This document shows, in pieces, positions 45,101 through 54,949 of a stretch of 64,000 nucleotides of DNA. This DNA comes from Acuticoccus sp. I52.16.1 (GTDB taxonomy: Bacteria > Pseudomonadota > Alphaproteobacteria > Rhizobiales > Amorphaceae). Position 1 is the stretch's first letter. Every line of letters starts with the position of its first letter. The notes under the pieces are model-generated. The model was not told the origin of the DNA and made no database searches. It was given only the letters and a program-made list of their open reading frames with translations. The position numbers and the translations under genes are program-made. The stretch lies in NCBI RefSeq assembly GCF_022865125.1, contig NZ_CP094828.1:186001-250000 (forward strand). Reading direction: 5' to 3'.

Positions 45101-47176
45101 ATGGCTCAGGTTCGGCTAGCAATTGATATCGGCGGCACCTTCACCGACGTCGTGCTCGACACAGGCGACGGGCGCGTCGACACCACCAAGGTGCTCACGA
45201 CGCCCAAGGCGCCCGAGGACGGCGCGCTGACGGGGATGATGGTGGTGCTGCAGGCCGCCGGGCTGAAGCCGGCCGACGTCGACCTGATCCTGCACGGCAC
45301 GACGCTCGCCACCAACGCGCTGATCGAGCGCAAAGGCGCCAAGACGGCGCTGATCGCCACCGAGGGTTTCCGCGACGTCCTCGCGATCGGCTACGAGGAC
45401 CGCTACGACCAGTACGACATCGGCATCGTCAAGCCGGCCCCGCTGATCGACCGGGCCCTGCGCTTCACCGTGCCGGAGCGCGTGGCGGTCGACGGGGCGG
45501 TGCTGAAGCCGCTCGACGAGGCGGCGGTGGCCGCGCTGGTGCCGCAGATCGAGGCGGCGGGCGTCGAAGCGGTCGCGGTGGCGCTGATCCACGCCTACGC
45601 GGCGCCGGCGCACGAGGAGCGCATCGGCGCGATCCTCGCCGAGGCGCTGCCGGGCGTCTCGGTCAGCCTCTCCAGCGCCGTCTCGCCGGAAGCGCGCGAG
45701 TTCGAGCGGACGATGACCACCGCGGTCAACGCCTACGTGCAGCCGCTGATGGCGGGCTATCTCGGCCGGTTCCAGACGCGCCTCGCCGAGGAAGGGTTCG
45801 CCGCGCCGGTGCTCCTGATGACGTCCGGCGGCGGCCTCACCACCATCGAGACGGCGCGCCAGTTCCCGGTGCGGCTGGTGGAGTCCGGCCCGGCGGGCGG
45901 GGCGATCCTAGCGGCCGAGGTGGCGCGGGCGTGCGGCGAGGACAAGGTCCTCTCGTTCGACATGGGCGGCACGACGGCCAAGATCTGCCTGATCGACGCC
46001 GGCACGCCCAACACCGCGCGCGTCTTCGAGGTCGACCGGCAGTCCCGCTTCACCAAGGGCTCGGGCCTGCCAATCCGCATCCCGGTGATCGAGATGATCG
46101 AGATCGGCGCCGGCGGCGGGTCCATCGCCAAGGTGGACGCGATGAAGCGCATCGCGGTCGGCCCGCAGTCGGCCGGCTCCGATCCCGGCCCGGTGGCCTA
46201 CGGCCGCGGCGGCACCGCGCCGACGGTGACCGACGGCGACCTGACGCTCGGCCGGCTCGACCCGGACGACTTCGCCGGCGGGCGCATCAAGCTCGACGCG
46301 GCGGCGAGCGCGGCCGCGATCGCCAAGGCGGTGGGTGAGCCTATGGGCCTTTCCCCGCGCTTCGCCGCCTTCGGTATCGCCGAGATCGTCGACGAGAACA
46401 TGGCCAACGCGGCGCGCGTGCATGCGGTCGAGAACGGGGCGGACGTCGCCAGCCGCACGCTGATCGCCTTCGGCGGTGCGGCACCGCTCCACGCCGGACG
46501 GCTGGCGCAGAAGCTCGGCATCGACAAGGTGATCGTCCCGGCGCACGCCGGCGTCGGCTCGGCGGTCGGCTTCCTCTACGCGCCGGTGTCGTTCGAGGTG
46601 GTGCGCAGCGCGTTCGTCCCGCTCGACGGGATGGACCGCGAGGCGGTCGCCGCGATGTACGCCGAGATGGACGCGGTGGTGCGCCCGGTGGTGACCGCCG
46701 CGGTCGCCGAGAGCGAGGTGACGCCGACCCGCACGGCGTACCTGCGCTACATGGGCCAGGGCCACGAAGTCCCGGTCGAGGTGCCGGCCGACTTCGACCC
46801 CGAGGCGCTGAAGACCGCGTTCGAGGCCGCCTACCGCGCTCTCTTCGGCCGCACCATCGCCGGCGCCGCGGTCGAGGCGATGAGCTGGTCGCTGGCGCTC
46901 GCCGCCCCGGCGAAGGCCGAGCGGATGACCGAGCGGGCCACCGGCACGATCGAGCCGCAGACCCGCACGCTGTTCGATCCCGACGGTGAGACCACCGTCG
47001 AGGTGCGGGCCTTCCCGCGCGCCGCGCTCGCCGACGGGACCGAGGTCCCCGGCCCCGCGCTCGTCACCGAAGCGGCCACGACGACCGTCGTCCCGAAAGG
47101 CTACACCGCCGCCCTCGACGGCGACGGCCACCTGATCCTCACCCGCCAGCCCCAAGCGCAGGAGATCGCCGCGTGA
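45101..47176 (+). CDS. hyuA: Hydantoinase/oxoprolinase family subunit A (HyuA)
   Basis: 691 residues. The ASKHA-type ATPase core shows at LAIDIGGTFTDVVLD (phosphate-1 motif), HGTTLATNALIERKG and FDMGGTTAKICLID. With HyuB, these enzymes hydrolyse or carboxylate cyclic amides and ketones in ATP-dependent reactions (N-methylhydantoin amidohydrolase, 5-oxoprolinase and acetophenone carboxylase are members); which applies is not visible. GGAGAG precedes the ATG. GTGA overlap with hyuB. Confidence 0.9.
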   Translation: MAQVRLAIDIGGTFTDVVLDTGDGRVDTTKVLTTPKAPEDGALTGMMVVLQAAGLKPADVDLILHGTTLATNALIERKGAKTALIATEGFRDVLAIGYEDRYDQYDIGIVKPAPLIDRALRFTVPERVAVDGAVLKPLDEAAVAALVPQIEAAGVEAVAVALIHAYAAPAHEERIGAILAEALPGVSVSLSSAVSPEAREFERTMTTAVNAYVQPLMAGYLGRFQTRLAEEGFAAPVLLMTSGGGLTTIETARQFPVRLVESGPAGGAILAAEVARACGEDKVLSFDMGGTTAKICLIDAGTPNTARVFEVDRQSRFTKGSGLPIRIPVIEMIEIGAGGGSIAKVDAMKRIAVGPQSAGSDPGPVAYGRGGTAPTVTDGDLTLGRLDPDDFAGGRIKLDAAASAAAIAKAVGEPMGLSPRFAAFGIAEIVDENMANAARVHAVENGADVASRTLIAFGGAAPLHAGRLAQKLGIDKVIVPAHAGVGSAVGFLYAPVSFEVVRSAFVPLDGMDREAVAAMYAEMDAVVRPVVTAAVAESEVTPTRTAYLRYMGQGHEVPVEVPADFDPEALKTAFEAAYRALFGRTIAGAAVEAMSWSLALAAPAKAERMTERATGTIEPQTRTLFDPDGETTVEVRAFPRAALADGTEVPGPALVTEAATTTVVPKGYTAALDGDGHLILTRQPQAQEIAA

Positions 47177-48750
47177 GCGCAGCCGATGCCATCCGCAACC
47201 AGGTGATGTGGGATCGCCTGATCGCAGTCGTCGAGGAGCAGGCGCAGGCGCTCCTGCGCACCGCCTTCTCCACCATCGTGCGCGAGGCGGGCGACCTTTC
47301 CGCCGGCGTCTTCGACCTGGAGGGGCGGATGCTCGCCCAGGCGGTCACCGGCACGCCGGGCCACGTCAACTCCATGGCCGAATCGGTGAAGCATTTCATC
47401 GACGTCTTCCCCGTCGAGACGATGAAGGAAGGCGACCACTACATCACCAACGACCCCTGGCGCGGCACCGGCCACCTCAACGACTTCGTGGTGACGACGC
47501 CGGCCTTCCACGACGGGAAGATGGTGGGGCTCTTCTCCTGCACCTCCCACCTGATCGACATCGGCGGGATCGGCTTCGGGCCGGACGGGCATGACGTCTT
47601 CGCCGAAGGGATCAACATTCCGTTCCTGAAGATATGCGATCAGGGGCGGATGGACGCCAACTTGATGGCGATGATCCGCGCCAACACGCGCCTGCCGGTG
47701 GAGACCGAGGGCGACGTCTACTCGCTCATCTCGTGCAACGAGATCGGCGCCAAGCGGCTCTCGGAGATGATGGGCGAGTACGGCCTCACCTCGCTGGACG
47801 CGCTCGCGGGCCACATCATCGGCGCCTCGCGCGCCGCGGCGCTGGAGCGGATCGCGGCGCTGCCGAGGGGAACGACGCGCAATTCGATGACGATCGACGG
47901 GCTGGACAAGCCGATCGACCTCGTCGCCGCGCTGACGGTCGCCGAGGACGGCATCCACGTCGACTATGACGGCACGTCCGGCACGGCGAAGAAGGGCATC
48001 AACGTGCCGCTCGCCTACACCCGGGCCTATACCGCGTTCGGGCTGATGGCGGCGATCGCCAAGGGGATCCCCAACAACGCCGGCTCGCTGTCGGTCTGGC
48101 ATATCGAGGCGCCGGTGGGCTGCATCCTCAACGCACCGCGGGGGCTGCCGGTCTCCTCGCGCCACATCATCGGCCAGATGCTGCCGGACGTGATGTTCGG
48201 CTGCCTCGCCGACATGATCCCCGAGGTGGTCCCGGCGGAGGGCACCTCGTGCCTGTGGAACGTGACGCTGCGCGGACAGGCGGAGGCCAACAGCCTCGGC
48301 CGGCACGGCTTCGCGGTGACGATCACCACCAACGGCGGCACCGGCGCGCGGCCGGACAAGGACGGCCTCTCGGCGACCGCCTTCCCCTCGGGCGTGAAGG
48401 GCTCGCCGGTGGAGATCATGGAGCAGGCCGCGCCGGTGGTCGTGTGGAAGAAGGAGCTGCGCGACGGGTCGGGCGGCGCCGGACGGTTCCGCGGCGGCGA
48501 CGGGCAGTCGATCGAGATCGAGAACCGGTTCGGCCAGTCGATGGAGCTTCTGGCGGCGTTCGACCGGATCGACCATCCGCCGCGCGGCCGGGCCGGCGGC
48601 GGCAACGGCGCCTGCGGCTCGGTGGCGCTGTCGGACGGCACGAAGCTGAAGGGCAAGGGAACGCAGGAGATCCCCGCCGGCAAGCGGCTGTGCCTCGAGA
48701 CCCCCGGCGGCGGCGGCTACGGCACGCCTGCCGCCGAAGCCGGCGAGTAG
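47173..48750 (+). CDS. hyuB: Hydantoinase/oxoprolinase family subunit B (HyuB)
   Basis: 525 residues, partner of HyuA. Typical HyuB stretches are RTAFSTIVREAGDLSAGVFD, TGTPGHVNSM, ITNDPWRGTGHLNDF and the Gly-rich C-terminus with SGGAGRFRGGDGQ and TPGGGGYGTP. HyuB carries the metal-dependent hydrolase or carboxylase half-site in characterised members. The GTG start overlaps the hyuA stop, so the two should form a complex. The TRAP operon starts 402 bases further on in the same direction. Confidence 0.92.
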   Translation: MSAADAIRNQVMWDRLIAVVEEQAQALLRTAFSTIVREAGDLSAGVFDLEGRMLAQAVTGTPGHVNSMAESVKHFIDVFPVETMKEGDHYITNDPWRGTGHLNDFVVTTPAFHDGKMVGLFSCTSHLIDIGGIGFGPDGHDVFAEGINIPFLKICDQGRMDANLMAMIRANTRLPVETEGDVYSLISCNEIGAKRLSEMMGEYGLTSLDALAGHIIGASRAAALERIAALPRGTTRNSMTIDGLDKPIDLVAALTVAEDGIHVDYDGTSGTAKKGINVPLAYTRAYTAFGLMAAIAKGIPNNAGSLSVWHIEAPVGCILNAPRGLPVSSRHIIGQMLPDVMFGCLADMIPEVVPAEGTSCLWNVTLRGQAEANSLGRHGFAVTITTNGGTGARPDKDGLSATAFPSGVKGSPVEIMEQAAPVVVWKKELRDGSGGAGRFRGGDGQSIEIENRFGQSMELLAAFDRIDHPPRGRAGGGNGACGSVALSDGTKLKGKGTQEIPAGKRLCLETPGGGGYGTPAAEAGE

Positions 48751-48994
48751 CGGCCGTCGCCGGCCCCGCCTAAGTCCGCCGGCGCAGCATCGCGGCAAGA
48801 CCGCGGTGCCGGCCACCGTCCGCGGCGTGCCGCCGGACCGCGCCCGGCGCCCGGCCGGACCCGCGCCACGGACGGCGCGCAGGCCGCCGGCGCAGGGTGT
48901 GACACGCGGCGGAGGGACAAGGCCGGCGCGCGGCTGCGGCGCGGTCGAACGCCGCACCCTGCCGCCGGTGCCGGCACCGCCTCGGAGCCCAACC

Positions 48995-49009
48995 AAAGTC
49001 TTACTTTGT
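48995..49009. promoter_or_regulatory. Inverted repeat 1 upstream of dctP
   Basis: CAAAGT-CTT-ACTTTG, perfect 6-3-6 inverted repeat about 145 bases before the dctP start. Candidate operator; it could also be a weak hairpin ending the hyuAB transcript. Confidence 0.45.
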
Positions 49010-49023
49010 CCGATGCCCGGAGT

Positions 49024-49051
49024 TGAAACGATCGCCAAGGCTGATGTTTCA
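49024..49051. promoter_or_regulatory. Inverted repeat 2 upstream of dctP
   Basis: TGAAAC (49024-49029) and GTTTCA (49046-49051) are inverted arms 22 bases apart start to start, about two helical turns, with further partial symmetry inside (GATC/TGAT). Spacing suits a dimeric regulator binding one DNA face. Confidence 0.45.
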
Positions 49052-49152
49052 CGTCTGAATGTGGGGGAGAGGCCTTCGGACGGTTTACGTACCCTACATT
49101 TTAGTTATTGATCCCTCTACTGCCCGTCAGCCGGCAGATTGGAGGAGACAAT

Positions 49153-50286
49153 ATGACAGAACAAAAGCGTAGCCCGCTCAGCCGTCGCTCGTTCCTGCGG
49201 ACCGGCGCCGTCGCCGGCGGTGCAGCCGCGGCGTCGACCCTCGCCGCGCCCGCGGTGCTGGGTCAGGCACCGATCGTTGTAAAGATGCAGACCTCCTGGC
49301 CCGCGTCCGACATCTGGATGGAGATGGCCGGCCAGTATGTCGAGCGCGTGGAGAAGATGTCCGGCGGGCGACTGAAGATCGACCTCCTGCCGGCCGGCGC
49401 CGTCGTCGCCGCCTTCCAGGTGCTCGACGCGGTCAACGACGGCGTGCTTGACGCCGCGCACTCCGTCTCGGCCTACTGGTACGGCAAGAACAAGGCCGCC
49501 TCGCTGTTCGGCACCGGCCCGGTGTTCGGCGGCAATCCGACCACGATGCTCTCCTGGTTCTACCAGGGCGGCGGGCGCGAGCTCTACACCGAGCTGACGC
49601 AGGACATGATGGGCCTCAACGTCGTCGGCCTGCTCGGCTTCCCGATGCCGGCTCAGCCCTTCGGCTGGTTCACCAACCCGGTCGCCAGCGCGGACGACAT
49701 CAAGGGTCTCAAGTACCGCACCGTCGGCCTCGCCGCGGACCTCATGCAGTCGATGGGCATGTCGGTCGCGCAGCTTCCGGGCGGCGAAATCGTGCCCGCG
49801 ATGGAGCGCGGCGTGATCGACGCGTTCGAGTTCAACAATCCCTCGTCCGACATGCGCTTCGGCGCCCAGGACGTGGCGACGAACTACTATCTGGGCTCCT
49901 ACCACCAGGCGTCCGAGGCCTTCGAGTTCCTGTTCAACCGGGACTTCATGGAAGACCTCGACGACGATCTGCGGGCCATCATGGAGTACGGCGTCGAGGC
50001 CGCGTCGACGGCAAATACCGCCTTCGCGCTCGACAACTACTCGTCCGACCTGCAGAAGCTGCTGGAAGGCGGCGTCAACGTGCAGCAAACGCCCGAGTCG
50101 ATCCAGGCCGCGCAGCTCGACGCCTGGTCGGAGATGATCACGACGCTCGAGAGCGATCCGTTCATCAAGAAGGTGCTCGACAGCCAGCGTGCCTGGGTGG
50201 AGCGGGTCACCTACTACGAGATCCTGAACTCGCCCGATTACCGGATGGCCTACAACCACTTCTTCCCGGGCAAGCTTCCCGCCTGA
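49153..50286 (+). CDS. dctP: TRAP transporter periplasmic solute-binding protein DctP, Tat-exported
   Basis: 377 residues. A twin-arginine signal SRRSFLR (10-16) with a following Ala/Gly-rich hydrophobic region and AAPAVLGQA shows export as a folded protein. The mature part has the DctP-fold marks VKMQTSWPASDIWMEMA, RLKIDLLPAGAVV and LPGGEIVPAMERGVIDAFEF, the last being the usual ligand-facing segment. Related proteins bind 2-keto acids or other carboxylates, but specificity cannot be read. ATG 49153 with GGAGGAG upstream. First gene of dctP-dctQ-dctM-amidase-like-small membrane protein. Confidence 0.93.
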   Translation: MTEQKRSPLSRRSFLRTGAVAGGAAAASTLAAPAVLGQAPIVVKMQTSWPASDIWMEMAGQYVERVEKMSGGRLKIDLLPAGAVVAAFQVLDAVNDGVLDAAHSVSAYWYGKNKAASLFGTGPVFGGNPTTMLSWFYQGGGRELYTELTQDMMGLNVVGLLGFPMPAQPFGWFTNPVASADDIKGLKYRTVGLAADLMQSMGMSVAQLPGGEIVPAMERGVIDAFEFNNPSSDMRFGAQDVATNYYLGSYHQASEAFEFLFNRDFMEDLDDDLRAIMEYGVEAASTANTAFALDNYSSDLQKLLEGGVNVQQTPESIQAAQLDAWSEMITTLESDPFIKKVLDSQRAWVERVTYYEILNSPDYRMAYNHFFPGKLPA

Positions 50287-50303
50287 CGAAGGCCCAGGCC
50301 GCG

Positions 50304-50330
50304 GCGGCCCGGCACGGCGTGCCGGGCCGC
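50304..50330 (+). terminator. Strong hairpin between dctP and dctQ
   Basis: GCGGCCCGGCAC and GTGCCGGGCCGC form a perfect 12-bp stem with a three-base loop, 17 bases after the dctP stop, followed by TTCGTCTTG, a weak T-rich tract. It probably ends part of the transcripts and protects the dctP mRNA, giving more binding protein than membrane subunits. Confidence 0.7.
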
Positions 50331-50421
50331 TTCGTCTTGCGGGCCGCAGGGAGAGCCGGCCCGCATTTTGCCAGATCGCGCAGATGACAAAACACGTTAG
50401 CCGGGGAGCCGCGCACACCAC

Positions 50422-51006
50422 ATGACCAGCTTCATCCGCTTCGCCGACGCGTTGTCGGCGGCCTTCGGCAAGGCGTTCGCCTGGCTGATCCTCCTGATGA
50501 CGCTCGGCACCAGTTACGAAGTCTTCGTGCGCTACGTGCTGAACGACCCGACGCCGTGGGCCTTCGACGTCTCGTTCATCATGTACGGCACGCTCTTCAT
50601 GATGGGCGGCGCCTACACGCTGTCGCGCGGCGGCCACGTGCGCGGCGACTTCCTGTACCGGCTGTGGAAGCCGCGCACGCAGGCGACCGTCGACCTCGTC
50701 CTCTACGTCTTCTTCTTCTTCCCCGGCGTGACGGCGCTGATCGTGTCGGGCTGGAAATACGCGGCCCGCTCCTGGCGCTATGGCGAGGTGAGTGTGAACT
50801 CTCCCGCGGGCGTGCCGATCTTCCAGTTCAAGACGGTGATCGTGGCTGCCGGCATCCTCCTCTTCATCCAGGGGATCGCGGAGATCTTCCGGGCGATCAA
50901 ATGCATCCAGACCGGTGAGTGGATGCGCGCGCACGAGGACGTGCACGAAACCGAAGACGAACTGATGAACAAGGCCGCCGAGGCCGAAGCGGGCAACCAC
51001 CCATGA
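50422..51006 (+). CDS. dctQ: TRAP transporter small membrane subunit DctQ
   Basis: 194 residues, four hydrophobic segments (about 16-36, 52-70, 92-112, 136-156) and the family region YEVFVRYVLNDPTPWAFDVS. The C-terminal 40 residues are charged and cytosolic. DctQ pairs with DctM in a sodium-driven uptake system. It overlaps dctM (ATGA). Confidence 0.93.
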   Translation: MTSFIRFADALSAAFGKAFAWLILLMTLGTSYEVFVRYVLNDPTPWAFDVSFIMYGTLFMMGGAYTLSRGGHVRGDFLYRLWKPRTQATVDLVLYVFFFFPGVTALIVSGWKYAARSWRYGEVSVNSPAGVPIFQFKTVIVAAGILLFIQGIAEIFRAIKCIQTGEWMRAHEDVHETEDELMNKAAEAEAGNHP

Positions 51007-52421
51007 CCGATCCCCAGCTCGCCCTCACCATGCTGGGGCTCTTCATCGTCCTGGTCTTCCTGGGCTTTCCGATCGCCTTTACCTTGATGGCGATGGGGAT
51101 CGGCTTCGGCTACTACGCCTACTGGGATCCCTCGCGACAGTGGCGCTCGTACCTGCGGCTCGACGAGACGGCGACCGGTTGGGACTCCTGGTCCTCATGG
51201 TTCGACGGGTTCCTGAACAACCGCATCTTCGACCTCTTCATCAACCAGACCTATACGGTGATGAGCAACGAGGTGCTGACGGCGGTGCCGCTGTTCCTCT
51301 TCATGGGCTACATCGTCGAGCGGGCGAACATCGTCGACCGGCTGTTCTCCACCCTCAACATCGCCTCCAAGCGCATCCCTGGCTCCATGGGCGTCGCGGC
51401 GCTGATCACCTGCGCCCTCTTCGCGACCGCGACCGGCATCGTCGGCGCCGTCGTGACGCTGATGGGCCTCCTGGCGCTGCCGGCGATGCTGAAGGCGCGC
51501 TACGACCCGTCGTTCGCGTCGGGGATCATCTGCGCCGGCGGCACGCTGGGCATCCTGATTCCGCCGTCGATCATGCTGATCGTCTATGCGGCGGCGTCCG
51601 GCGTTTCGATCGTGCGGCTCTATGCCGGCGCCCTCATTCCGGGGCTCATCCTGGTGGGGCTCTACCTCGTCTACGTCGTCGGGCGGTCGATCGTGCAGCC
51701 ATCGGCGGCGCCTCGCCCCACCAAGGAGGAGGTGCCGGACATTCCGGTCGGCCAGCTCGTGGTGATGATCGTCAGCTCGTTCGTGCCGCTCGCCTTCCTC
51801 ATCCTGGCGGTGCTGGGTTCGATCCTCTTCGGCCTCGCGACGCCGACCGAGGCGGCCGCGATCGGCGCGCTGGGCGGCATCCTGCTGGCGATCGGCTACC
51901 GGGCGCTCACCTTCCAGCGGCTGCGCGAGAGCGTCTACCTGACCGTTCGGACCACGGCGATGGTGTGTTGGCTGTTCGTCGGCTCCTACGTCTTCTCGGC
52001 GGTCTTCTCCTACCTGGGCGGCGAGCAGATCATCTCCGAGTTCGTCTCCGGGCTCGACATCACGCCGCTGCAGTTCCTGCTCCTGGCGCAGCTCATCATC
52101 TTCCTTCTGGGCTGGCCGCTGGAGTGGTCGGAGATCATCATCATCTTCGTGCCGATCTTCCTGCCGCTGCTGGAGCTGTTCGGAATCGACCCGCTGTTCT
52201 TCGGCATCCTGGTCGCCCTCAACCTGCAAACCTCGTTCCTGACGCCGCCGATGGCGATGTCGGCCTATTATCTCAAGGGCATCGCCCCGCCGGAGGTGAA
52301 GCTGACGCACATCTTCGCCGGCATCATGCCGTTCCTGCTGATGGTCTTCGTGGCGATGGCGGTGGTCTACATGGTGCCGGGCGCGGTCTACTACCTGCCG
52401 GAGGTCTTCTATGGGCGCTGA
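51003..52421 (+). CDS. dctM: TRAP transporter large permease subunit DctM
   Basis: 472 residues with a dozen or so hydrophobic segments. Family marks include NEVLTAVPLFLFMGYIVER, the substrate/ion-site loop CAGGTLGILIPPSIMLIVYA and LATPTEAAAIGALGG. A polar insertion at about 60-85 (DPSRQWRSYLRLDETATGWD) is longer than in many DctM. It is the transport channel of the operon, and its end overlaps the amidase-like gene by 11 bases. Confidence 0.95.
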   Translation: MTDPQLALTMLGLFIVLVFLGFPIAFTLMAMGIGFGYYAYWDPSRQWRSYLRLDETATGWDSWSSWFDGFLNNRIFDLFINQTYTVMSNEVLTAVPLFLFMGYIVERANIVDRLFSTLNIASKRIPGSMGVAALITCALFATATGIVGAVVTLMGLLALPAMLKARYDPSFASGIICAGGTLGILIPPSIMLIVYAAASGVSIVRLYAGALIPGLILVGLYLVYVVGRSIVQPSAAPRPTKEEVPDIPVGQLVVMIVSSFVPLAFLILAVLGSILFGLATPTEAAAIGALGGILLAIGYRALTFQRLRESVYLTVRTTAMVCWLFVGSYVFSAVFSYLGGEQIISEFVSGLDITPLQFLLLAQLIIFLLGWPLEWSEIIIIFVPIFLPLLELFGIDPLFFGILVALNLQTSFLTPPMAMSAYYLKGIAPPEVKLTHIFAGIMPFLLMVFVAMAVVYMVPGAVYYLPEVFYGR

Positions 52422-53691
52422 TCCGCGGCTCATGGAGCTGCCGGTGCCGATCCTGCAGGAGCGGATCGCGAGCGGGGCGATGCGCGCCGCCGATCTCGCC
52501 GCCGCCGCGGCCGCCAAGGTGGAGGCCGCCGACGGCGACGGCCTGGCCTGGTTCGACGGCGACTACCTGCGCCGGCAGGGTGCGGGGATGGACGTGTGGC
52601 GCGGTCGCGGCCGGCCGCTGGGCGCCCTTCACGGCCTGCCGGTGACGGTGGGCGACCTCGCCGACACCGCGCGCATCCCCACCCGCCTCGGCACCGCCGT
52701 CCACGACGCGCGCGTGCCCGAGCGCGACGCCGCGTTGGTGGAGCGGCTGCGCGGCGCCGGGGCGCTGATCGCCGGCAAGGGCGTCGTCTCGCCGTTCGGC
52801 ACCGGCGGCTCGGACGGAGCCGCCACGCCGGTCGCGGCGCGCTATGCGCCGGCTGCGGTCATCACCTCGGCCGACGGCGGGGCGATCGCCGAGGCCGCCG
52901 CACGCGGGGTGGTCGGGTACCGGCCGACCGCAGGCTCCATCCCCATGCGCGGCGTCTTCGCCGCGGCGCCGACACTGGCGACGGCGACCGTGCTGGCGAC
53001 CGATCTCGTCGGCGCGGCGAGCGTTGCCGAGGCGCTGTTCGCGCCGGGCGACGACGCCGCCTTCGCCATGCCCGCACCGCCCCCCGGCCTGAAGGCCGCG
53101 ACGGCCGCCACGCCCCCCGTGCCGCCGACCATCGCCGTGGTGCCGCCGCTGTGGTGGGACGATGCCGACGCCGACATCGTCGCCGCCTTCGAGGAACTCG
53201 CCGAGGCGCTGACGCCGCGGGCCTTCGGAGCGACGCTGCCGGAGATCTTCCACGAGGCGACGACGCAGGCACACCGCATCATCGCCGCCGAGAGCGCCAA
53301 GACGCTGCACGGCACCGTCGAGCGGCACGGCGACGACCTCCCCGCCGGGGTCGCCGCGCTCGTGGCGGCCGGCGAGGGGGTGAGCGCGCGCGACTACCTC
53401 ACCGCGCTCGATTGGCGGACCGTGCTCGCCGCCGGCCTCGACGCCGTCCTCGACCGCTGCGACGCGGTCCTGACGGCGGTGTCGCCGCGGGTCGGCGAGG
53501 CGGGGCCGGCGGACGCCAACCTCACCTGGGCCTTCCTCGGCGTGCCCTCGGTCACCCTGCCGTTGCTGGGGAGCGAGGACGGGCGCGCCATCGGCCTGCA
53601 ACTCATCTCGCGCAAGGGCGACGACGCGCGCCTCCTGCGCACCGCGGCCTGGCTGCAGGCGCTCGTCGTCCGCCAGGGGGAGTCGAACTAG
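52411..53691 (+). CDS. Amidase-fold protein lacking the catalytic triad (probable pseudoenzyme)
   Basis: 426 residues of the amidase signature family, recognisable from ALHGLPVTVGDLADT, ALVERLRGAGALIAGKG, PMRGVF and NLTWAFLGVPSVTLPL. All three catalytic residues seem lost: the Lys of the VKD motif is Gly81 (VGD), the TSSGGS cis-Ser motif is replaced by TGGSDG after an apparent deletion of about 15-20 residues, and the nucleophile Ser of GGSIR is Ala158 (GGAIA). The reading frame is otherwise sound, so it is kept as a protein. It overlaps dctM and the next gene. A binding or regulatory role in the TRAP system is inference. Confidence 0.78.
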   Translation: MGADPRLMELPVPILQERIASGAMRAADLAAAAAAKVEAADGDGLAWFDGDYLRRQGAGMDVWRGRGRPLGALHGLPVTVGDLADTARIPTRLGTAVHDARVPERDAALVERLRGAGALIAGKGVVSPFGTGGSDGAATPVAARYAPAAVITSADGGAIAEAAARGVVGYRPTAGSIPMRGVFAAAPTLATATVLATDLVGAASVAEALFAPGDDAAFAMPAPPPGLKAATAATPPVPPTIAVVPPLWWDDADADIVAAFEELAEALTPRAFGATLPEIFHEATTQAHRIIAAESAKTLHGTVERHGDDLPAGVAALVAAGEGVSARDYLTALDWRTVLAAGLDAVLDRCDAVLTAVSPRVGEAGPADANLTWAFLGVPSVTLPLLGSEDGRAIGLQLISRKGDDARLLRTAAWLQALVVRQGESN

Positions 53692-53855
53692 TGCTGGAAC
53701 GCATTCTGTCCGTGATCGCCTTCGCCGTCCTGTGCGGCTTCCTCTTCATCCTGACGTGGCACGTCCCGCGGATCGACCTGACGGTGGTGCTCATCGCCAC
53801 GGTGCTCCTGAGCGGCTACGATATCCTGATCCACCGCCCGCCCGGCGCCAAGTAG
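53691..53855 (+). CDS. Small two-helix membrane protein at the end of the TRAP operon
   Basis: 54 residues, starting with GTG that shares a base with the amidase-like stop (TAGTG) and has GGGGGAG about seven bases upstream. Two hydrophobic segments, VIAFAVLCGFLFILTW (about 8-23) and LTVVLIATVLLSGYDIL (about 30-46), are joined by HVPRID and end in a short basic tail. No family is recognised. Its tight coupling suggests it works with the transporter or the amidase-like protein. Confidence 0.72.
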   Translation: MLERILSVIAFAVLCGFLFILTWHVPRIDLTVVLIATVLLSGYDILIHRPPGAK

Positions 53856-53941
53856 CCCGGCGCGGCGCCCGGAGCGCGCCGTCGGCCGGCCGATTCCGCA
53901 CGCGCCCGTGGCGCACCGCGCCCCCAGGGCGCCATTGCCGG

Positions 53942-53970
53942 TTGCACTCGGCCACCCGGTCGCGTATATG
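53942..53970 (+). promoter_or_regulatory. Predicted promoter of rpsB
   Basis: TTGCAC (53942-53947), a 17-base spacer and TATATG (53965-53970) match the housekeeping sigma-factor consensus well. It lies 89 bases before the rpsB start and is the best promoter match noticed in the window. Confidence 0.7.
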
Positions 53971-54003
53971 CCCGCCCATCCCACACGCGAGCTGTTCTCC
54001 GGT

Positions 54004-54020
54004 GCCCCGATGAACGGGGC
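54004..54020 (+). other. Small hairpin in the rpsB leader
   Basis: GCCCCG-ATGAA-CGGGGC forms a perfect 6-bp stem with a 5-base loop in the rpsB mRNA leader, 38 bases before the start. S2 autoregulation through leader structures is known in other bacteria; whether this hairpin serves that is not shown. Confidence 0.4.
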
Positions 54021-54058
54021 CAGCGCTCGCGGAGGTTCAACCGGAAAGTAGAGAATAT

Positions 54059-54949
54059 ATGGCTCTTCCCGACTTCACGATGCGTCAGCTCCTCGAGGCC
54101 GGCGTCCACTTCGGCCACCAGACGCACCGCTGGAACCCGAAGATGCAGGATTACATCTTCGGCGCGCGCAACAACATCCACATCCTCGACCTCGCGCAGA
54201 CCGTGCCGCTGCTGCACCAGGCGCTGAAGGCCGTGTCCGATACGGTCGCCAAGGGCGGTCGCCTGATGATGGTCGGCACCAAGCGCCAGGCGCAGGAAGC
54301 CGTCGCCACGTCCGCCACCGAGTGCGCCCAGTACTACGTCAATGCCCGCTGGCTCGGCGGCATGATGACCAACTGGAAGACGATCTCCAACTCGATCCGC
54401 CGCCTCAACAATCTGGAAGAGATGCTCCAGGGTGAAGCCCAGGGCTTCACCAAGAAAGAGCGCCTCAACCTCGACCGTGAGCGCGAGAAGCTCGAGCGCA
54501 ACCTCGGCGGCATCAAGTCGATGGGCGGCGTGCCGGACATCGTGTTCGTGATCGACACGAACCGCGAGGCGATCGCCATCCAGGAAGCCCGCCGGCTGGG
54601 CATCCCCATCGTCGCCATCCTCGACACCAACTGCGACCCCGAGGGCATCACCTACCCGATCCCGGGCAACGACGATGCCGCCCGCGCCATCACGCTCTAC
54701 TGCGACCTGATGGCCCGTGCCGCGCTCGACGGCCTGCTCCGCTCGCAGGGCGATTCGGGTTACGACCTGGGCGAGGCCGAGGAGCTGCCGGTCGAGCCGG
54801 AACTCACCGAGGAGCCCGCCGCGACCGAGGAAGCCGCCGCCGCCGAGGTTTCGACCACCGTCGAGGAGACCCCGGTCGCCGAGCTGATGGAGCCGACCCC
54901 GGAAGACACCGGCGACGCCCCGGCCGAGTCCGAGACGCAGACCGCCTAA
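54059..54949 (+). CDS. rpsB: 30S ribosomal protein S2
   Basis: 296 residues. The S2 body is clear: [44 protein letters not shown] and [20 protein letters not shown]. Residues from about 243 on form a strongly acidic tail (Glu/Ala/Thr/Pro), making the protein ~55 residues longer than E. coli S2, as in other alphaproteobacteria. It has its own promoter. Its usual partner tsf is not next to it; an FkbM methyltransferase follows instead. Confidence 0.98.

Follow-up and report, generated by a model that had tools for sequence, protein, structure and literature searches.

An amidase-family protein without its catalytic triad in a TRAP transporter operon of Acuticoccus, possibly kept as an accessory part of the importer

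The window, i.e. the whole stretch of 64,000 nucleotides from Acuticoccus sp. I52.16.1 analysed here, contains a TRAP transporter operon in a region with the gene order HyuA, HyuB, DctP, DctQ, DctM, amidase, small open reading frame and rpsB. TRAP importers are described as three-part machines, and all three parts are encoded here, DctP and DctM being recognised by profile and DctQ by position and orthology. The solute-binding protein DctP (49153..50286, forward strand; PF03480, 116.1 bits) carries a twin-arginine signal, with a TAT profile match of 21.1 bits that is slightly below the cut-off of 22.7, and its nearest solved chain is 2hzk (deposited as SmoM). The small permease DctQ (50422..51006, forward strand) has no NCBIfam match and was assigned from its position and its orthologues, which lie next to DctM in all 14 loci compared, whereas the large permease DctM (51003..52421, forward strand) matches TIGR00786 with 278.9 bits (cut-off 268.45). 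Upstream are HyuA (hydantoinase/oxoprolinase A; 45101..47176, forward strand; PF01968 and PF05378) and HyuB (hydantoinase B/oxoprolinase; 47173..48750, forward strand; PF02538, 481.1 bits). A pattern scan from 48600 to 54200 returned no promoter-like site (0.3 expected) and four terminator-like sites (2.0 expected, standard deviation 1.6).

Behind dctM follows a gene for an amidase-signature protein of 426 amino acids (52411..53691, forward strand). Its ATG overlaps the dctM stop by 11 nucleotides (ATGGGCGCTGA, 52411-52421) and the frame has zero internal stops. Five triad-bearing proteins of the genus and that of genome G047 have 439-452 amino acids. The intact frame, nearly normal length and dctM overlap described in an earlier note on this DNA are thereby confirmed. 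With 98.9 bits against PF01425 (cut-off 27), a family search of its own genome and matches to solved amidases, the protein belongs by descent to the family of malonamidase E2, FAAH and GatA; against the 25 NCBIfam models shown it scores far under all cut-offs. The GTG of a further gene (53691..53855, forward strand) overlaps the amidase stop. The encoded protein of 54 amino acids is predicted, by hydropathy and inspection by eye, to be a two-helix membrane protein, and neither the window copy nor three others scanned had a Pfam match above cut-off.

Amidase signature enzymes use a catalytic Lys, a cis-Ser and a nucleophile Ser. The Lys, present in 76 of 76 triad-bearing relatives of our first set, is replaced by Gly81 in the window protein (codon 52651..52653, forward strand) and by Ser in both sister species, G005 and G002; alignment with relatives and malonamidase E2 agrees with the earlier note, which had placed the lost Lys of its VKD motif at Gly81. 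The GGSSxGS motif that holds the cis-Ser is degraded in all three proteins. In the window protein it reads GGSDGAA, where Gly133 falls in the column of the first GGSS Ser and is followed by Ser134, so the cis-Ser is absent; neither sister has a Ser beside this position. Aligned with its relatives, the GGSDG remnant (52804..52818, forward strand) is preceded by a gap of 17 residues, as in G005, while 13 residues are missing in G002. The absence of a TSSGGS motif after a local deletion, as proposed earlier, therefore holds with regard to the degraded motif and the missing residues, but the family motif is GGSSxGS and not TSSGGS. The nucleophile column is residue 157, occupied by Gly in the window protein (codon 52879..52881, forward strand; alignments with relatives and malonamidase E2), Ser in G005 and Glu in G002, and the Ser of GSxIR is accordingly missing from the window protein. 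Ala158, which had been named as the former Ser, was rejected because it lies one residue off the Ser column in the relatives' alignments. A phmmer alignment to malonamidase E2 places Gly81 and Gly157 at chain positions 62 and 155, with low alignment confidence around 157. The triad columns obtained by comparing a profile of the three proteins with plant FAAH agree with this alignment, and the aligned malonamidase E2 and FAAH residues are the established catalytic residues of these enzymes. The claim that the whole triad has been lost is hence correct for the window protein, which lacks the Lys, the cis-Ser and the nucleophile, but not for its sister G005, which retains Ser at 157. In comparison to amidase signature enzymes, Lys and GGSS are gone from all three proteins, the nucleophile from two of the three, and neighbouring conserved columns are lost as well.

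The arrangement of the locus is common, as the module DctP-DctQ-DctM-amidase-small membrane protein is widespread. DctP-DctQ-DctM precede the amidase in 14 of 14 loci compared, all of them top hits, and triad-bearing relatives in the same operon position show up to 44% identity to the window protein. Among 146 relatives, 92 are located directly behind DctM, 49 are not and five are undecidable. The window amidase shows both features of the module, as it lies directly behind DctM and is followed by the small membrane protein. Of the DctM-adjacent loci with sufficient sequence, 70 of 90 encode a small membrane protein 3' of the amidase, compared to 7 of 49 other loci. This count is partly circular, since 30 of 60 seeds chosen by motif and hydropathy among DctM-adjacent loci were used to train the small-gene profile, with the 49 non-adjacent loci serving as control. 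No small gene was found in 20 of the 90. It is present behind the amidase of all five relatives with triad losses described below, two DctM-adjacent loci of which (L016 and L018) were part of the training set. In many loci the small protein ends in a ..YDFW..-like sequence. Clustering of the neighbours of 15 loci revealed no further gene common to all. Two family members occur in tandem in L163 (G552) and in G421:C31; both L163 copies, behind one TRAP operon, have an intact triad. At L051:7576-9417 (reverse strand, G011) the DctM match is split in two pieces about 300 bases apart, so the permease gene may be interrupted there.

The full triad is kept in 141 of the 146 relatives (79 from relatives and order searches, made up of all 75 hits of one search and four of another; 28 loci from a class search, in which 36 of 37 places were looked at, the exception being the second G421 copy; and 39 others, drawn among others from 20 newly fetched places and 13 loci of new genomes) and in five further copies outside this tally, which argues against chance as the origin of the triad loss in the window protein. 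As matches were selected by E-value, the survey may miss strongly diverged losers, and some genomes contribute several copies. The five exceptions are three genomes of one genus, L147 with a full loss and L128 with a loss of Lys only. Each of the five immediately follows DctM, so that losses occur in 5 of 92 DctM-adjacent loci versus 0 of 49 others. Within the genus, eight of eight genomes contain one such amidase at E 1e-50, three of them triad-less and five triad-bearing, and we read the three as one loss event. A. yangtzensis JL1095, an estuarine type strain, carries the same triad-less gene; a scan of named genomes gave two loci, this one and L061 (30%). We also considered whether the window genome has another copy of this TRAP amidase with a full triad and rejected this, since the next best match to the window protein has an E-value of 1.5e-8; a triad-bearing relative had no match there at E 1e-75 (4 of 34 candidates scored). 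A search of plasmids gave no match at E 1e-30.

The L147 amidase (L155:4353-5621, reverse strand, G440) carries Ser instead of Lys, Thr instead of the cis-Ser and Gly instead of the nucleophile Ser. It is separated from the three Acuticoccus-type proteins in amidase trees built with and without the catalytic columns as well as in the DctM tree. Although its nearest neighbour in the amidase trees is weakly supported (0.13 and 0.49), L147 does not group with the three and we therefore read its loss as separate. In the L128 amidase (L156:3507-4856, reverse strand, G599) Ala replaces Lys and the rest of the triad is kept, which possibly represents an intermediate stage of loss. The masked amidase tree and the DctM tree both unite L128 and the three in a broader clade, in which Lys is retained by the remaining members shown; a separate loss is thus the best reading here as well. 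Both are single genomes, and the searches for close kin covered orders with one (L147) and two (L128) genomes. Triad-less amidases thus occur in other TRAP operons, as the earlier note had suggested looking for: in two sister genomes and, separately, in L147. The matches at L204 (G1013) and G084:C4:358976-360241 each contain one TGA; up to its first stop, L204 encodes 449 amino acids and keeps the triad.

To describe where conservation was lost, we used 92 columns that are at least 90% conserved in the 76 triad-bearing relatives, of which 41 are kept and 31 lost in all three triad-less proteins. The losses concern 16 of 35 columns at 119-190 (L020 numbering; 7 kept) and 15 of 57 elsewhere (34 kept). 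Residues 121-166 are invariant among the three at 15 of 46 positions versus 209 of 380 elsewhere, a ratio of 0.59, while the minimum among 5053 triad-bearing, DctM-adjacent triples of similar divergence, which are not independent of one another, is 1.30, so that 0 of 5053 show such inverted conservation. The former active-site segment, whose lost positions the earlier note had wanted checked for conservation, is now relatively poorly conserved. L147 departs from the family at 13 of 58 near-invariant positions. Except for Ala44, all of these (12) are either Lys81 or lie within 130-178, the segment that holds the motifs. L128 differs at 3 of 58, and the lowest of 40 other DctM-adjacent proteins keeps 56. 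Among the neighbouring conserved columns that all three proteins have lost along with the Lys are the Arg in GSxIR, the Gln ahead of the nucleophile and a loop with the pattern Gly-x-Ala-Pro, and these columns presumably line the pocket. Their loss argues against ligand binding in the old pocket; binding of the imported compound, one of the two roles suggested earlier, is therefore disfavoured for that site.

The triad-less gene is under constraint, though relaxed. No stop and no frameshift is found in any of the three genes, so that homologues with random decay and stop codons, which would have spoken against a retained function, were not encountered among them. In neutral simulations at the observed divergence of 26%, 3.8-5.6 stops arose on average and zero stops in only 0.4-1.9% of runs. 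A pairwise codon model rejects omega = 1 for the whole gene in all three pairs (2dlnL 257, 233 and 241) and, in the two pairs so tested, also in each of six segments (2dlnL 11-67); as synonymous sites are saturated, the value of omega is not identifiable for the amidase and we use only this rejection. Between the window gene and G005 the three codon positions differ by 0.178, 0.185 and 0.42. NG86 estimates of dN/dS are 0.32-0.46 for the triad-less amidase compared to 0.07-0.22 for six other genes of the same species and 0.33 for a triad-bearing pair (G006-G047), and dS between the window and G005 is 0.68 for the amidase versus 0.29-0.38 in the other genes. These high dN/dS and raised dS values make the constraint look relaxed. 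The ratio of amidase to DctM distance among the three is 5.2, 7.3 and 9.6 versus a median of 1.89 (5-95% range 0.97-3.16) in 779 triad-bearing pairs, which are not independent and include three close pairs that also reach 5.1-6.5. The stem of the three measures 1.26 in the amidase tree versus 0.126 in the DctM tree (43 loci), and 1.05 versus 0.09 in larger sets. The idea put forward earlier, that selection has kept the protein for a non-enzymatic job, draws support from three species with uninterrupted frames, from the rejection of omega = 1 and from the separate loss in the same type of operon.

The main rival to such a job is slow decay, i.e. a dispensable amidase that is degenerating, with an intact frame that is a matter of time and a residual constraint that keeps the protein soluble and harmless. 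The accelerated evolution, the raised dS and the 31 family-conserved columns lost in all three are in line with this. Nevertheless, we regard it as rather unlikely, given that none of the three genes has acquired a stop or frameshift, that omega = 1 is rejected, that 41 of the 92 conserved columns persist in all three and that L147 shows a separate, focused loss. It is less probable still, in our judgement, that the frame is kept solely as a spacer by which translation reaches the overlapping small membrane gene. Indeed, the amidase overlaps dctM at its start and the small gene at its stop, but a spacer predicts zero constraint on the amino acids, contrary to the codon model, and a far shorter one would suffice; we consider this explanation highly improbable. 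The same low probability applies to a rebuilt active site in which other residues now catalyse. G005 still has Ser at 157, and the three share an invariant Cys350 that other relatives seldom have. However, the sole Lys invariant in the three, Lys123, is conserved family-wide, the sole invariant Ser is Ser358, and conserved columns around the old site are lost.

A further explanation is that the neighbouring HyuAB, from a family of cyclic-amide hydrolases, now performs the hydrolysis and has deprived the amidase of its enzymatic role. The three triad-less operons of the genus adjoin rpsB and lie downstream of HyuAB, no HyuAB was found in the fetched stretches of any of the 12 triad-bearing loci compared, and elsewhere in the genus HyuA reaches at most 56% identity. 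In three other genomes of the genus, the stretch at rpsB had no match to the HyuA, DctM or amidase of the window operon. HyuA relatives as such are very numerous in the genus, with up to 23 in G005 at E 1e-100, several matches having an internal stop. A takeover would account for the loss of catalysis but not for the retention of the protein, and the association with HyuAB amounts to one event only. As no HyuA or HyuB match was found around L147 (15 kb) or L128 (13.5 kb), and no hydantoinase among eight open reading frames of the L147 stretch scanned with Pfam, we rejected it as a general cause. It is a possible cause of the loss in the genus of the window only, and one that we consider quite improbable.

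We give about an even chance to the reading that the triad-less amidase is a pseudoenzyme retained in the cytoplasm as an accessory part of the TRAP importer. The fast evolution of the amidase in the three, the restriction of the L147 and L128 losses to single genomes and the 20 DctM-adjacent loci without a small gene count against it. The ancestral module DctP-DctQ-DctM-amidase-small membrane protein would have produced an active amidase next to the permease, probably tethered to the permease or to the small membrane protein, and tethering would have allowed the imported compound to be processed and the permease to be contacted. Catalysis may then have been dropped and the protein kept on two separate occasions, in the branch of the window and in the distant lineage of L147. 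What is left for the amidase to do would be contact with other proteins, by which it holds, stabilises or regulates DctQ/DctM. The data show its kinship with triad-bearing amidases, the missing triad, a frame and constraint that persist, a constant place in the operon and more than one loss; from these we infer that it resides in the cytoplasm, touches DctQ/DctM or the small protein, and has a regulatory effect. Gating or regulation of the transporter, the other role suggested earlier, would be compatible with these data.

Some known systems offer partial parallels. In plants, amidase-family proteins of the Toc64 type reportedly work without catalysis in a membrane import machine (PMC8393822). 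Toc64 and its mitochondrial homologue in Arabidopsis resemble the proposed role of the window protein in being an amidase-family part of a membrane import machine. They serve protein import into plant organelles, have no known link to TRAP transporters and are compared here at the level of the shared family. Tse8 of P. aeruginosa is described as binding GatCAB and not showing the amidase activity of GatA (PMC12283126). It matches the amidase family by sequence, as does the window protein, but is a secreted effector and keeps residues where the window protein has its deletion. Judged by the title of a 2010 paper listed in PMC8739950, TeaD is a universal stress protein that regulates the TRAP transporter TeaABC, and would thus also be an extra protein regulating a TRAP transporter, though from another protein family. 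The word amidase is absent from the main text of a TRAP review (PMC5812351), and we found no title on triad-less TRAP-linked amidases in the open-licence literature.

More tentatively, a large group of TRAP transporters may include two additional subunits that have gone unrecognised, namely a cytoplasmic protein of the amidase fold and a small membrane protein, with the fold being needed by the transporter; we consider this possible but doubtful. A need of the transporter itself for the amidase fold would explain why the gene stayed in place through at least two losses of catalysis. A conserved pair of amidase and small membrane protein within one operon, in which the amidase has repeatedly lost its catalysis but not its place, would then point to five-part TRAP machines and offer a natural experiment for telling apart what a transporter-linked enzyme contributes by its structure and by its catalysis.
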